A stretch of DNA of 64,000 bases from a virus. The notes beneath the pieces were generated by a model. That model saw only the letters and a program-made list of their open reading frames with translations, ran no database searches and was not told where the DNA came from. Positions within the stretch are counted from its first letter, which is position 1, and each line of letters begins with the position of its first letter. Positions 40,643-54,955 of this stretch are shown piece after piece. The position numbers and the translations under genes are program-made. Location: positions 61,115 through 125,114 of IMG/VR virus record IMGVR_UViG_3300042691_032880; one strand, written 5' to 3'.

Positions 40643-43369
40643 TTATTTTTTTCCCTTCTTATCGTACTTGTTCTTATTCTCTTTAGCAACCGCTAATTGC
40701 TTGTCAGCTATCTCTTTTCGAGTATTTAATTCCTCTCTTTTTAAGTTCAAAGCTTGAGATTCACGGTTGTTTTTATTGATCTCTTGCTCCCGTTTCAAGC
40801 TGATATTCTCATCAGCCTGACGCTTCTTTTCAAGATATTGTAGAGAATCCAAGTAATCACTTTGTTGATTGGCGTTGAGATCTTGAACCTGATAACCAGC
40901 ACCTTTGATCTCCGCAACTTGAATCTGTGTCTCTCTATCCAATTGCTTTTGTTCAGCCTCAAAACGTTGTTGAGCCTCTTGCATTTGTTGCGCAGACTCA
41001 AGCTGTTGCTGTTGCATCTGCTGTTGCTGCTGCATATCTTCTTGACGCTGTTGCTGAGTCTTCTGTTCAATCTTCTTAAGGACGTGGGTCACCTCACTCA
41101 TAGAGTCAGCCTTCACAATTTCAGCTAAGTCATAGATGCTGGCACCTGCTGTATTGTTCTGAATAGCAAGCTGTTTGATCTGCTCCATTATCTGTTTATG
41201 GTTGACCTTGGTGGTCACAAAAACATTTAACTCACGAGATAACAAGTCGGTACCATTCATTTCAAAGTTTACCTTCTCATCCTGCGATGTCATATATGAA
41301 AGACGCAAACTTGGACGACGAGAATGATAATATTGAGCTAGGTCTGTACGCATCTGATGCACTCTAGGCATCAGATACTCAGAGTGTTGTACAAAGTACA
41401 TCTCAGTCTGTGAGAAGGATGCATTGATGGACTGCTCAATACCTGTGGCTGTCTCCTGACCTGTCTGTTGTCCAAGACGTTGAGGTGTAATACCAATCAC
41501 CTCAAATGCCTGTTGCTTGAAGTAATTAGCTAGCTGAATCCTGGTCATCAGACGCTGGGTCTGCTCCAAGTTCAACATCTGGTAGTGATTGAATCCTACC
41601 GCATTACCTGTGTTTGCAATGCTTGTATCCAAAGGAAGGATCTGGAAGTTCTTCATTGCAACATATGCCTTGGCATAGTTGTTCTCACCCCAGTCCTCAC
41701 CTGCGGAATGTTTTGGAAGAGCATTGTGATCCAACAAAATCACAGTACCCAACTCATCTATAAGAATGTCCGATATCTGGTTATTCACCAAATTGTAACC
41801 CACCTGGAAAGGCTTCATCTTGTCCACAAGCGATACGCTTCTGGAGTTGCGATCTGAGAATACCGCTCCCTCTACAGGAAGCTTGCATCCATATATAGTA
41901 AAGTCACCTTTAAACTGGAACTTTACTGGTTTGATATTCAGATAAATAGGTTGGATACCCATGTAATCCGCATTACCATAGAAGCTAGGTCTGTTAGGAC
42001 CAATCTTCAATCCACCCCAAACCTGGTTGATCCATATCCACTTAATATGCTCTCCTTGGGTCAAAGTGTTCTCATCTTTGTTCTTATTAATAGTGGTGTC
42101 GTATACAGGAGGTACCGTAACCTTATAGTCTTCGGTAACAACCTCTTGATATTTCATACCGTTTTCAGGATCAATCTTGGTAAGATAGCCTACCATTCTT
42201 TGGGACTTCCAATAGCATGTGGTGACCCTGAGCAATTGGTAGGTTCCGAAGTCTTGGAGGTCTTCCGATTCATTGAGGATGCGAGTGATGATGTCATCCC
42301 CCGCAGCCAAGAAGTAATCGTTAACAGAGGTAAACTGACGGAAGCCCAAAGAAGGAGAGCTAACATTCCACTGATGACTGCGAGTACCGTCGTAGTAAGT
42401 TCCATCGTTCTGATAACCTTGGATAGGATAACCAGCAGCTTTTTTAGGATATATGTTTTCAAGGGACCTGAGTTGTTCATCGTTCATCAAATATCCATAC
42501 TTGTCGATGATATCCGACACAGTATGCAGTTCAATCTTACCTACGAAGTTTCCTTGTGATATGTACCTAATGTCAGGGGATTTGTGATAAAAAGTAAGGA
42601 CTGGGTTCCATAACTCCACCTCATAATCATCCTCATCCATCCTAAAATGCCAGAACTCACGGTCGGTTGTAAGCATGTCGCGAAACGCACGATTTTCAAG
42701 TTCCTTCATACGGAACTTTTCAGTGTCAGCTTCATGTTGATGATTTGCCCACTGTTCAACTAATGACCGATAATCCTTTTTAAAGAACTGTTCTATTTCG
42801 GGAAGTGTCTTAATGTTCTCTGGAGCAAGCGCCTGTTTGAATTCTTCAGACTCAGGATCAGCACCCATTTCAATCATCTTCATTGCAATCTGAGTCTCCG
42901 CCTTTTTTACAAGGTATTGCTCAATCATGGAACGCTTATATTCCATGGCTTCATTGAAACTGGTAGGATCAGTGGTGATATATTGTACTTTATCCGTACG
43001 CTTAGCAAATTCCCCACACATGACGTTGATCACATTGGGGATAATAGGATAGAACTTCAACTCGAGCGCAGATGCGTCCTCGCGCGTGAGCGTGTCTATC
43101 AAATCAGCATACTCGTTGTCCTCCTCGACTATGTAGTCGGTCCTGTCAATGATACCATTGGCAAGTTTATAATTCTTAAGCAACTTACGAGCATTGCGAC
43201 GAATCTGTCTAAGACCTTCCATCTCAAACCAGTCCATATTCCAAGCACCCCATTCACCATCCTTCTGTGTCTTTGGAAGGAACTGAATAGGTTGGGTCAA
43301 TGTACCCATACGGGTATGGTCAGTCTTGACCCCCGCTTTCGCTTGCATTGCGTTAATAACTAATGCCAT
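40643..43369 (-). CDS. Portal protein
   Basis: A 908-residue protein directly downstream of the large terminase. The core (about 60-700) shows the layout of crAss-like portals, including a long alpha/beta clip-wing section with EFWHFRMDEDDYEVELWNP (about 236-254) and the loop region ANTGNAVGFNHYQMLNLEQTQR near 590-610. The C-terminal 170 residues are a Gln/Glu/Lys coiled coil with a run of Met-Gln repeats (QQQQQMQQQQLESAQQ), a barrel-like extension frequent in this lineage. It would form the dodecameric DNA gate and the motor docking site. Confidence 0.85.
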   Translation of the reverse strand: MALVINAMQAKAGVKTDHTRMGTLTQPIQFLPKTQKDGEWGAWNMDWFEMEGLRQIRRNARKLLKNYKLANGIIDRTDYIVEEDNEYADLIDTLTREDASALELKFYPIIPNVINVMCGEFAKRTDKVQYITTDPTSFNEAMEYKRSMIEQYLVKKAETQIAMKMIEMGADPESEEFKQALAPENIKTLPEIEQFFKKDYRSLVEQWANHQHEADTEKFRMKELENRAFRDMLTTDREFWHFRMDEDDYEVELWNPVLTFYHKSPDIRYISQGNFVGKIELHTVSDIIDKYGYLMNDEQLRSLENIYPKKAAGYPIQGYQNDGTYYDGTRSHQWNVSSPSLGFRQFTSVNDYFLAAGDDIITRILNESEDLQDFGTYQLLRVTTCYWKSQRMVGYLTKIDPENGMKYQEVVTEDYKVTVPPVYDTTINKNKDENTLTQGEHIKWIWINQVWGGLKIGPNRPSFYGNADYMGIQPIYLNIKPVKFQFKGDFTIYGCKLPVEGAVFSDRNSRSVSLVDKMKPFQVGYNLVNNQISDILIDELGTVILLDHNALPKHSAGEDWGENNYAKAYVAMKNFQILPLDTSIANTGNAVGFNHYQMLNLEQTQRLMTRIQLANYFKQQAFEVIGITPQRLGQQTGQETATGIEQSINASFSQTEMYFVQHSEYLMPRVHQMRTDLAQYYHSRRPSLRLSYMTSQDEKVNFEMNGTDLLSRELNVFVTTKVNHKQIMEQIKQLAIQNNTAGASIYDLAEIVKADSMSEVTHVLKKIEQKTQQQRQEDMQQQQQMQQQQLESAQQMQEAQQRFEAEQKQLDRETQIQVAEIKGAGYQVQDLNANQQSDYLDSLQYLEKKRQADENISLKREQEINKNNRESQALNLKREELNTRKEIADKQLAVAKENKNKYDKKGKK

Positions 43370-52085: not shown

Positions 52086-52316
52086 CTTATTAATTGTTCA
52101 TAGTAGTCACCCGAAATCCATGGGGACAGTTTACAGCCGACCTTGAGTAAGTCGGTCACGTTTACATAAACTACCAACTCATATACTATTTGCTGGGATC
52201 CAGTCCCTGCAAACACAAGGGTCGCAACCTTGGGGGTAAAGCGAGGAGCCGTTTGGATGACAACATTGTTTAGCAATGATAACTCCATATGGATAAAACT
52301 CCTCGCTCAACCTTTG
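52086..52316 (+). promoter_or_regulatory. Folded leader before S10-like gene
   Basis: No gene lies here. Helices seen: CCGAC/GTCGG (about 52129-52147), TTTGC-GGGA/TCCC-GCAAA (about 52188-52213), CAAGG/CCTTG (about 52216-52232), and a nine-pair AGCGAGGAG (52240-52248) with CTCCTCGCT (52299-52307) closing a domain containing CATTG/CAATG and TCCATATGGA hairpins. The domain ends about ten bases before the start codon, a good place for translational control. Confidence 0.6.
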
Positions 52317-52574
52317 ATGATGACTATGAATAACTCTGAATACCTAGAGTTTGTATTGGAGTCTAACTCCAATAAGAAACTCGACGCTCTTTGTGATGCG
52401 ATTATCCGCTGCATTAAAAGTACTGGTGGCGTTAAAAGTGGTCCCATTCCTTTTAAGAACAAGAGGATAATCTATTGCTATGGACCTACTGCTCGTACCA
52501 TTGACTCCATTATGGCTCTTCGTCAACCCGCCAAAGTCAAGGTAGAAGTTAATATCCTGGAGCGTAAATCCTAA
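52317..52574 (+). CDS. S10/NusE-like protein without ribosome-binding loop
   Basis: An 85-residue protein; start among ATGs at 52317, 52320 or 52326. It reads like ribosomal protein S10: LEFVLESNSNKKLDALCDAI, then CIKSTGGVKSGPIPFKNK (compare S10 TAKRTGAQVRGPIPLPTRK) and RTIDSIMALRQPAKVKVEVNIL (compare KTVDALMRL..AAGVDVQISL). Between these blocks only RIIYCYGPTA is present, where S10 has about twenty more residues forming the extended loop that enters the 30S head. This loop is dispensable for the NusB/antitermination role of S10 (NusE). I infer an antitermination or RNA-binding function instead of a ribosomal one. Confidence 0.75.
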   Translation: MMTMNNSEYLEFVLESNSNKKLDALCDAIIRCIKSTGGVKSGPIPFKNKRIIYCYGPTARTIDSIMALRQPAKVKVEVNILERKS

Positions 52575-52834
52575 TGAAAAGGTCAGTCGGTGCTGAAATG
52601 ACTGTGAAGCATCACTTTAACTTTACAACCCAACAAACAAGAAGAATAGAGTAACTCTGAAGCTGTCCAATTAGTAAGAGGTATGGTAAGTCTTCTATCA
52701 AAGGAAATATTGCATTAAAGCCTTTGGTATAATTATCAATTCAGTAGTTGATGCGACAACTAGATTGGATATAGTTCAGGAGATAGAAAAAAGCCTGAAT
52801 TTTCATTTGACTAACCCCTTAAACCCCTTATAAG
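52575..52834 (+). other. Structured intergenic region
   Basis: No credible gene. It contains a CAGTC/GACTG hairpin near 52583 and an AATTCAG...CTGAATT domain (about 52737-52802) enclosing AGTTG/CAACT. It may be the 3' part of the S10-like transcript or a separate small RNA. The TAAACCCCTTATAAG tract precedes the next ATG. Confidence 0.45.
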
Positions 52835-53278
52835 ATGAAGGTACTACTTAACACCTGTTACGGTGGGTTTGGATTCTCTGAAGAATTCTTAACCCACCTC
52901 GAATCTGTCCATCCTGACATGTTCACCAGTCATGGATTGGATAGTAGTTATTGGAATGAACGTGACGACGAACGCATTGTGAATGAAGCAATTGCGTTTG
53001 GTTGTGATCCTGAGGACGCTGGTCGATTGTTAGCCAGTGGTCCACATGCTCGACTGAGTGTAGTCGAAGTACCAGATGGATGTGAGTATTACATCCGCGA
53101 GTATGATGGTACCGAGTATATCAGTCACACCACCTTCACTATCTGTGAGGATATGTTGAAAGCAGGTCTTACTGATGAGCAAATTCAAACTGCTCGTAAA
53201 GTTGACTATCTCAAAGTCGTCTCTTGGAGTGACTATTGGGATGGTGATGCTTCCGCTCAGTTTGCACTTGCTGACTAA
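52835..53278 (+). CDS. Conserved phage protein with NTCYGGFG motif
   Basis: A 147-residue protein starting MKVLLNTCYGGFGFSEEF, a motif found at the N-terminus of a widespread phage and bacterial family of unknown function. The remainder is mixed alpha/beta with SVVEVPDGCEYYIREYDGTEYI and an acidic C-terminus. It lies between the two RNA-rich stretches. Confidence 0.7.
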   Translation: MKVLLNTCYGGFGFSEEFLTHLESVHPDMFTSHGLDSSYWNERDDERIVNEAIAFGCDPEDAGRLLASGPHARLSVVEVPDGCEYYIREYDGTEYISHTTFTICEDMLKAGLTDEQIQTARKVDYLKVVSWSDYWDGDASAQFALAD

Positions 53279-54057
53279 TCCCTAATGCACTTGGTTGTAA
53301 TCACACAGAGCGTCTCCTCACTACCCATAGGTTATGGGTGCTGCATAAAAAGCAGGTAGTAAAGTGGGTAATGCCACAGGATGTCCTGATAGGTAAGATG
53401 TGATGAATATTGATCTTGAGTACAATCAATAACAACTAAGCGCATTTCATTTGACCAAGGTGGTACTTCTCTAACGACAGGTACCAGTATGGATAACCAG
53501 GATAGCACGTCTGCCACTGTATAGCTATTCCTAATAAGAGGTTCGAGTCCTCCCTTGGTCACCAATCCCAATGCACTAACTCACCTCGCAAGGGTGAGCA
53601 GTTGTAATAACTAGAAAACTTTATAGAGTATAAGCGGGTAGACAAATCTATGCTACGCAATTAGCTACCACCTAAACTGCAGTATATTGCAAGATGCAGG
53701 TAATGGACACTGAGGTTGCTCTCGGGGATTTTGTCCTATAAAGATGTTATTACAACTGAGTGCAAAGGGTAATGAAACGTTCTAGGATTGTAACCTGGAT
53801 AGTCCGCCACCAGATGATAAGAAGCGAGGTCACTCTCGTAGGGGTATTTTGCCATTAGATTAAATGAGCCAGGATTGATGTTCCTGCACATCAGTGATCA
53901 GAGGCCTTTCGAGGCATAGTATCCAGTATGAACACATCGCGCTGATACACAAGGTCGTAGTTGAGATAAGGACAGGATGGTAATATCGTATGATGCTCCT
54001 GTTACTACGACCGAGTGTATTGGTATTGCATTGACCACAACTTAAAACCCTTTATAA
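53279..54057 (+). ncRNA. Large ornate structured RNA (GOLLD/ROOL-like candidate)
   Basis: 779 bases without a credible gene, densely foldable. Domain A: AATGCACTTGGTTGT (53284-53298) with ACAACTAAGCGCATT (53432-53446), fifteen positions with one GU and one mismatch, enclosing hairpins such as ACCCATA/TATGGGT, CTGC/GCAG, ATTGAT/ATCAAT and ATCACA/TGTGAT. Then a tRNA-like unit with CCA. Domain C: GCACT + AGTTGTAATAAC (about 53573-53612) with GTTATTACAACT + AGTGC (about 53746-53763). Domain D: GGTCGTAGT/ACTACGACC (about 53953-54012) and a GCCT-TTCG-AGGC hairpin. Size, density and tRNA association recall GOLLD/ROOL RNAs; family membership is unproven. Confidence 0.65.
53453..53564 (+). ncRNA. tRNA-like element with encoded CCA, enlarged middle
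   Basis: GACCAAG (53453-53459) pairs with CTTGGTC (53554-53560), followed by A and an encoded CCA. A T-arm GAGG-TTCGAGT-CCTC (53538-53552) is canonical. The 78 bases between acceptor and T-arm do not fold as D- plus anticodon arm; GGTAC/GTACC and GGATAGC/GCTATTCC helices are seen instead. It lies inside the large structured RNA, so it may be a processing signal or a tRNA carrying an insertion. Confidence 0.55.
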
Positions 54058-54255
54058 ATGAACAATTTAAACAAATCAGTGCTCATTGTAATAAACCTGA
54101 TAGGAGCTATTGCTATGATTATCAGTCTTGTAGTACCGTTCATTGTTCCAGTAGCCAACACAGCAGCGTTGGTATTGGCAATATGGATGATGATCACAGG
54201 ATTCGTCCTGTGGTATATTAGTATCAAGTTCCTTGAAGAAAAGTCTAACCTTTAA
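54058..54255 (+). CDS. Small membrane protein (65 aa)
   Basis: Two hydrophobic segments (about 8-30 and 34-55) with a short basic/acidic C-terminus FLEEKSNL. No family recognised. The ATG follows the large structured RNA directly. Confidence 0.55.
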   Translation: MNNLNKSVLIVINLIGAIAMIISLVVPFIVPVANTAALVLAIWMMITGFVLWYISIKFLEEKSNL

Positions 54256-54267
54256 AAACCCAAGAAA

Positions 54268-54576
54268 ATGGCAAAATTTAGGTATTACATCATCTTTCAT
54301 TCCGCAGGTACCCTTGATGGAACCTGGACTGGAACTATTGAGGAATTCTCCTCTTTGTTTATTACTGCCAATATCAATGAGATCTATTCCTATCAGATAT
54401 GGGAAGATGACTCCAAACCTGATCAGGATCCTGATCCCGATGATTTGTTCTATCAAAAACGGGATATGGACATGTTTGATCAGATGATTGAACAGCACGA
54501 ACAAGAGGAGTTGGAGAATGAAGTCGCCGAACAATGGGCGAAAGAACAATACTTGCGAGATCACTACCGCGAGTAA
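54268..54576 (+). CDS. Hypothetical acidic protein (102 aa)
   Basis: Starts MAKFRYYIIFHSAGTLDGTW with a beta-like N-half, then an Asp/Pro-rich linker and a Glu/Gln-rich helix (EQHEQEELENEVAEQW). No function evident. The gene ends just before a strong terminator. Confidence 0.55.
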   Translation: MAKFRYYIIFHSAGTLDGTWTGTIEEFSSLFITANINEIYSYQIWEDDSKPDQDPDPDDLFYQKRDMDMFDQMIEQHEQEELENEVAEQWAKEQYLRDHYRE

Positions 54577-54596
54577 CAGATTGAGGGTTCATAGTA

Positions 54597-54629
54597 AAGG
54601 GGAGGTCTGATAGCCTCCCCTTCTTTTTT
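54597..54629 (+). terminator. Intrinsic terminator
   Basis: AAGGGGAGG pairs with CCTCCCCTT around a seven-base loop, followed by CTTTTTT. Confidence 0.9.
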
Positions 54630-54781
54630 GCCCTATCTGTATCAGTAAAAAGAAAGTGGGATAAAGAAAAAGAATTATCCCTGAATTCATGTAACTGATG
54701 TATACAGAAGTTACACATTTACTTTGACATTATCAAGTGCCATCATCATAAGTATTTATAAACCAATAAATAAAAATTATC

Positions 54782-54955
54782 GTGGACAAAAACGAACAAA
54801 ATCAATTGTTAGCAGATACCATCAATATGGTAATGCTCTGTCTTGAAAAGTATCAGGATGACGCCGTCAAAAACGCCTGTCGTAATTTCCTCAATGAATT
54901 TGCTTACTCAGAAGATGAGGATGAGGAGATTACAAATGATGATTTACCTTTTTAA
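54782..54955 (+). CDS. Small acidic protein with SSB-like tail (57 aa)
   Basis: GTG at 54782 opens a 57-residue frame ending TAA at 54955. The body is helical (LLADTINMVMLCLEKYQDDA), the tail very acidic and ends NDDLPF, closely resembling the DDxPF tip by which single-strand binding proteins recruit replication partners. It has no OB-fold. A decoy or recruiter for SSB-binding host enzymes is an inference. Confidence 0.5.
   Translation: MDKNEQNQLLADTINMVMLCLEKYQDDAVKNACRNFLNEFAYSEDEDEEITNDDLPF

Follow-up and report, generated by a model that had tools for sequence, protein, structure and literature searches.

GOLLD and ROOL are the nearest described kinds, by habitat and look, to the RNA region analyzed here. 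GOLLD has a conserved 3' region and a less conserved 5' region, sometimes with tRNAs in the linker, and ROOL is often located near tRNA islands (PMC12286853). For tRNA-shaped RNAs without an anticodon arm, the relevant precedent is E. coli tRNA-Leu: its identity elements are A73, A15-U48, G18G19, and A20a, and variants lacking the anticodon arm stay active and are still charged (PMC9976931). A search of the open-access literature, with few subscription journals covered, found no earlier description of a crAss-like structured RNA family or of an anticodon-less phage tRNA-like RNA. We analyzed a 64,000-nt stretch (the window), bases 61115-125114 of a 125,114-base IMG/VR virus record, whose phage is called G000 in the comparisons below. 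A first-pass annotation made from the letters alone had placed it in a crAss-like phage. This holds: the capsid, portal, and terminase match crAss-like families, and the portal relatives in GenBank include gut crAss-like phages, Cellulophaga phi17:2, and Flavobacterium and Bacteroides phages. In GenBank, the top-listed match of the portal (window 40643-43369), with 35% identity, belongs to Leptolyngbya phage Lbo-JY46; cyanobacterial hosts are unusual for crAss-like relatives.

The block under study, 53279-54057, occupies the gap between a 147-aa and a 65-aa ORF on the same strand (Table 1). When all frames were inspected, none was convincing: the longest open stretch, 82 codons, is antisense and the plus-strand frames have 40 codons or fewer, and a coding block was therefore rejected. 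For the entire block the folding energy is -231 kcal/mol (z = -3.3), a value that none of 20 shuffled sequences equalled, and module B folded alone reaches z = -4.0 (0 of 200 shuffles). Its description as non-coding and densely structured was thus correct. We observed four separable elements of ~110-270 nt each, in the order module A, tRNA-like unit, module B, and a 3' domain (dom3). As an antisense guide to the phage's own genome the block was discarded, the longest exact match lying within the shuffled range. Two other features were noted in the surroundings: a strong terminator-like hairpin with a T run (AAGGGGAGG..CCTCCCCTT, window 54597-54622) after a 102-aa ORF downstream of the block, and an intergenic recurring motif, CCTAAT.AAAAGGT..TGCTG.AAT.AC...AAGCAT, seen by eye only at window 52575-52834 and in L163 near the second module.

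Table 1. Positions in the window of the four RNA elements, their parts, and the flanking ORFs.
Feature	Positions	Strand	Details
Upstream ORF, 147 aa	52835..53278	+	phrog_16527, function unknown
Module A	53284..53446	+	Chassis TGCAC 53286-53290 / GCGCA 53440-53444, with GGTTGTAAT / AATAACAACT closing the variable arm; divergent form without P1a hairpin
tRNA-like unit	53453..53564	+	Acceptor GACCAAG 53453-53459 / CTTGGTC 53554-53560; T-arm 53537-53553; encoded ACCA 53561-53564
D-arm-region hairpin	53462..53485	+	7 bp, 10-base loop CTCTAACGAC; loop identical in G001
Arm replacing anticodon arm	53500..53531	+	GGATAGC..GCTATTCC; shorter and changed in G001
Module B	53570..53769	+	P1 TGCAC 53572-53576 / GTGCA 53760-53764; P1a hairpin 53580-53598
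Module B, P2 and 3' element	within 53570..53769	+	P2 AGTTGTAATAAC 53600-53611 / GTTATTACAACT 53746-53757; 3' element GTGCAAAGGG
Module B variable arm	53612..53745	+	No relative among 185 extracted arms
dom3	53775..54042	+	Conserved core with arms that vary; one of these, 53961-54004, is closed by GGTCGTAG 53953-53960 / CTACGACC 54005-54012
Downstream ORF, 65 aa	54058..54255	+	

The first-pass annotation had read the block as one RNA with two domains, a member or new relative of the GOLLD and ROOL class. The Rfam GOLLD and ROOL models gave no match at gathering score in the window or at E <=10 in 52300-54900; no family of Rfam 15 matches the block, and no homologue of the window was found among GenBank phages. 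In the close relative G001, whose capsid protein shares 99.6% identity with that of the window, dom3 comes directly after the tRNA-like unit (L002 7346-7715) and modules A and B are both absent at that spot, which shows that the block is a set of separable elements and not a single RNA. G001 does carry a module elsewhere, upstream in the same gene series (L002 5497-5640). What stands of the earlier assignment is that a crAss-like phage carries a stretch of structured RNA here and that this stretch includes a tRNA-like unit; GOLLD/ROOL membership is unsupported, since the models are unmatched and the block consists of several independent elements instead of one 600-800-nt RNA. A free-standing large RNA that assembles into a complex as GOLLD or ROOL does, with the tRNA-like unit embedded in it, would fit the block's size, density of structure, internal tRNA-like unit, and phage origin, as well as the layout of GOLLD (PMC12286853), but the unmatched Rfam models, the separate occurrence of the parts, and the lack of both modules here in G001 make it improbable.

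The two paralogous domains with shared 5' and 3' elements that had been proposed are modules A and B. Both share the form TGCACT..GTTGTAAT..ACAACT.AG[TC]GCA, and independent copies in other phages confirm it. Module B has the P1, P1a, and P2 helices together with the conserved ends, and is the first row of the simple-form covariation alignment. Module A shows no P1a hairpin between TGCACT and GGTTGT and only its arm and closing ends link it to the family. Over 151 nt, this arm shares 95% identity with arm 3 of a three-arm module in G009; one A-U pair has become G-C in ATTGAT/ATCAAT, a compensatory change. An exact scan with the 20-base 3' element TTACAACTGAGTGCARAGGG located the family in at least 120 IMG/VR viral stretches, and an 18-base form, scanned against 257 Gb of bacterial and archaeal genomes, matched 3 stretches. 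These MAG contigs (L290-L292) are labelled Bacteroidales, Rickettsiella, and Neisseriaceae; the Rickettsiella and Neisseriaceae ones may be of phage origin and wrongly binned. Among 50,697 GenBank phages only chance-level matches were found (canonical modules at E >=3). A crAss-like capsid family was detected in 18 out of 19 module-bearing records tested. The module strand is opposite to the capsid gene in 18 of 18, at a distance of ~9.5-23 kb in 17 and ~38 kb in G056, circular genomes being assumed for G001, G056, and G057. Modules are intergenic, only 2 out of 133 lying inside a same-strand ORF.

The chassis deduced from the flanks consists of P1 (TGCAC/GTGCA), the P1a hairpin, and P2 (AGTTGTAATA/TATTACAACT) closing an arm, and the module cores including P2 are mostly 50-140 nt. 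Across 43 copies of the simple form, all five P1a pairs are compensatory, with both sides changed in some copies. The whole structure gives 83 compensatory cells, a number that none of 500 shuffles reached, in a control that leaves shared ancestry in; sliding the pairing partners destroys the signal. A longer form carries three arms; in an alignment of 14 sequences, 15 pairs of this chassis are compensatory, which no shuffle out of 500 reached under the same control. That P1 and outer P2 look constant is in part owed to the way the copies were picked, most of them via the 3' element and all joined across removed arms; P1a and the arm-2 helix are unaffected by this bias. When 18 loci were run against Rfam 15 (cmscan), only tRNAs and two hatchet ribozymes were reported and no module family. 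The hatchet ribozymes (RF02678, 81.5 and 78.1 bits) are at L168 7902-8038 (-) and L170 5635-5767 (+) in related phage contigs, the latter ~1 kb from a module. We concluded that the module family of environmental crAss-like phages is a covarying RNA family without an Rfam entry: its chassis are real RNA structures, found at a similar genomic position in many phages with very different arms.

The arms themselves are hypervariable, 141 out of 185 extracted ones having no relative in the set, in which some long extracts span more than one element. Some arms are common to a simple and a three-arm chassis (L186/L195), others to two different slots (L182 arm 2, L240 arm 3), and shared arms show internal compensatory changes (CCGTAGGCATACGG vs CCACAGGCATGTGG). 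Arms fold only modestly better than shuffled sequences, with a mean z of -0.85 for arm 3 and -1.3 for arm 1. From the G001 layout and the module A arm match in G009, it follows that the elements come and go independently. Could the modules then be mobile cassettes, spread by recombination at their conserved ends and of no function for the phage? The 95% identity of the module A arm to its G009 counterpart, at a capsid identity of 82%, the presence or absence of modules between close relatives, and the arms common to different chassis forms and slots are all in line with such spreading, yet most genomes carry one or two canonical copies (several more divergent copies occur in G009) at a conserved position, the compensatory changes point to selection on the RNA, and no mobility gene is tied to the modules, so that functionless cassettes seem quite unlikely. 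The usual copy number also led us to drop high-copy mobile elements or multi-copy module arrays. In L162 5134-5340 (-), of G008, two modules seem to be joined head to tail (..CTATTACAACC|AGTTGTAACAAG..), and the second arm has a counterpart in G009.

Between the two modules lies the tRNA-like unit with an encoded CCA, as first proposed, and its acceptor stem is compensated in G001, where it reads GACTGAG/CTCAGTC. The unit has the T-loop TTCGAGT and one T-stem mismatch (49-65 pair A-C), and it lacks an anticodon arm. The stem of the D-arm-region hairpin is changed on both sides in G001 (GGTATTG/CAATGCC); among the loci compared, this 7-bp type occurs only in G000 and G001. Neither ARAGORN nor the Rfam tRNA model called the unit a tRNA, and ARAGORN found no tmRNA in the window or close relatives; without an ARAGORN call, an ordinary tRNA or tmRNA was rejected as its identity. 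A recurring motif, TTGTTCCCTTGAGAAAGGA .. GAGGACTTCTCATCCTC, possibly a further RNA element, was seen beside tRNA-like units and modules at L161 9159-9240, L237 12811-12889, and L251 831-987.

A finder for acceptor, D-arm, and T-arm returned 34 tRNA-like units longer than 96 nt in module-bearing loci; a few are false matches, nearly all the rest have tRNA-Leu D-arms, and two look Ser-like. A scan for the Leu-type acceptor and D-arm matched at least 120 viral stretches. Among the matches listed, the T-arm follows after a 26-119-nt insert in 118 out of 128 Leu-type copies, and a canonical anticodon arm (5-bp stem, 7-base loop, U33) is present in 5 of 100 distinct inserts vs 5.0 expected from shuffles. 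Among the matches listed, T(U) stands at base 48 in 97 out of 100 and A at base 73 in 70 out of 83, with G18G19 and A15 fixed by the search pattern. The Leu-type units thus carry the A73 and U48 of E. coli leucine identity: these frames lost the anticodon arm and kept leucine-identity features. The kept set predicts that they are charged with leucine though unable to decode, and they are perhaps recognised by leucyl-tRNA synthetase. This argument concerns the relatives, because the window's phage has no Leu-type copy, its own unit being not Leu-type and unusual in its D-arm. The nearest ORFs on both sides of such units are on the same strand in 62 out of 80 cases. Anticodon-less tRNA-Leu-like units with variable inserts are common between genes of viral contigs up to ~411 kb (L293-L411; L252 10700-12700). 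A tRNA-Leu chassis query matched 350 phage records, many annotated tRNA-Leu; the four matches of this query that were examined (two phage and two plasmid-collection records) were all genuine tRNA-Leu genes and were set aside.

A profile search recovered the full dom3 only from G000 and G001, with differing arms, plus one weak match in L308 (E = 0.25). This match lies directly 3' of a tRNA-like unit, which pointed to further relatives: the first 70 nt of dom3 resemble elements directly 3' of tRNA-like units in G009, L308, L331, and L378. This first part has two helices, and in an alignment of six sequences, from which one extra G001 arm was cut out, 7 of their 9 pairs are compensatory. Pairwise scores beat all 100 shuffles only for L308 and G009, and the kinship of L331 and L378 therefore rests on position and pairing. 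Lack of covariation in homologues had been named in advance as grounds for giving up the structured-RNA reading; covariation is present in the simple form, the three-arm form, and dom3.

Our preferred reading, to which we give a probability of roughly 45%, takes the block as four structured RNA elements that follow one another between the genes of a same-strand series, each a conserved chassis closing variable arms, with the following role. The elements would be transcribed together with the flanking genes, each folding on its own. On the tRNA-like unit, the acceptor and T-arm would probably be what tRNA-processing enzymes (RNase P, 3' endonuclease) recognise; the unit would in this way punctuate the transcript and be released as a stable RNA. 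The modules would probably be similar self-contained stable units at mRNA ends, to which the processing argument extends only by analogy because neither is tRNA-like. The arms, as the diversifying part, would set the binding target of each RNA. The two halves of the reading differ in strength: we are highly confident that the elements are conserved structured chassis with variable arms, while transcription with the neighbours, recognition by tRNA enzymes, and arms as specificity parts form a tentative proposal built on sequence comparison. RNase P and Z do not require long arms that persist, which counts against the preferred reading, as do the unusual D-arm, the A-C pair at 49-65, and the non-Leu type of the window's own tRNA-like unit. 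Also against it, no arm is common to tRNA-like and module chassis (no exchange between them was convincing among 122 inserts and 185 arms), and arm folding is only modestly above that of shuffles. The diversity of arms and tRNA-like inserts would suit decoy or counter-defence RNAs that absorb host nucleases or other RNA-targeting defences, and a frame without an anticodon offers anticodon nucleases nothing to cut; with no defence partner identified, however, we doubt this function. Cis-regulatory, riboswitch-like leaders of the next gene are the least probable alternative: half of the modules (62 out of 125) are within 100 nt of the next ORF's start codon, but sensing would fall to the variable arm, which lacks conservation, the module family has no terminator associated with it, and an unsystematic look noticed no single gene family among the downstream ORFs.

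If the chassis-and-arm reading holds, phages carry a modular RNA display system. A broader generalization, that many large phages share a few chassis, including an anticodon-less, leucine-chargeable tRNA frame, to display structured variable arms between genes, strikes us as rather unlikely at present; if true, it would be a natural counterpart of the engineered tRNA scaffold, with each phage having its own set of RNA-based binders. The anticodon-less tRNA-Leu-like units are also relevant to the question of why tRNA-like genes are so numerous in large phages. Compared with known systems, the block is like GOLLD in its large size, dense folding, phage origin, and association with tRNAs, and in having a conserved and a variable part, and like ROOL in being a multi-helix phage RNA; it differs from GOLLD in that its several short elements are found separately, from ROOL in having no single 600-nt unit, and from both in being without an Rfam match. 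In layout, the tRNA-like frames resemble the tRNA-like end of tmRNA and the engineered tRNA scaffold. Like the former, they have an acceptor and T-arm with other RNA in place of the anticodon arm, and would be served by a synthetase that ignores the anticodon; unlike it, they receive no ARAGORN tmRNA call, carry 26-119-nt inserts, and have relatives that are Leu- and not Ala-type. Punctuation of polycistronic transcripts by tRNAs in mitochondria likewise involves tRNA-shaped elements between same-strand genes, whereas the phage frames have no anticodon arm. In the engineered tRNA scaffold (PMC3753655 group), an RNA of interest takes the place of the tRNA anticodon arm; the phage frames, by way of analogy only, are natural and hold ~100 different inserts.
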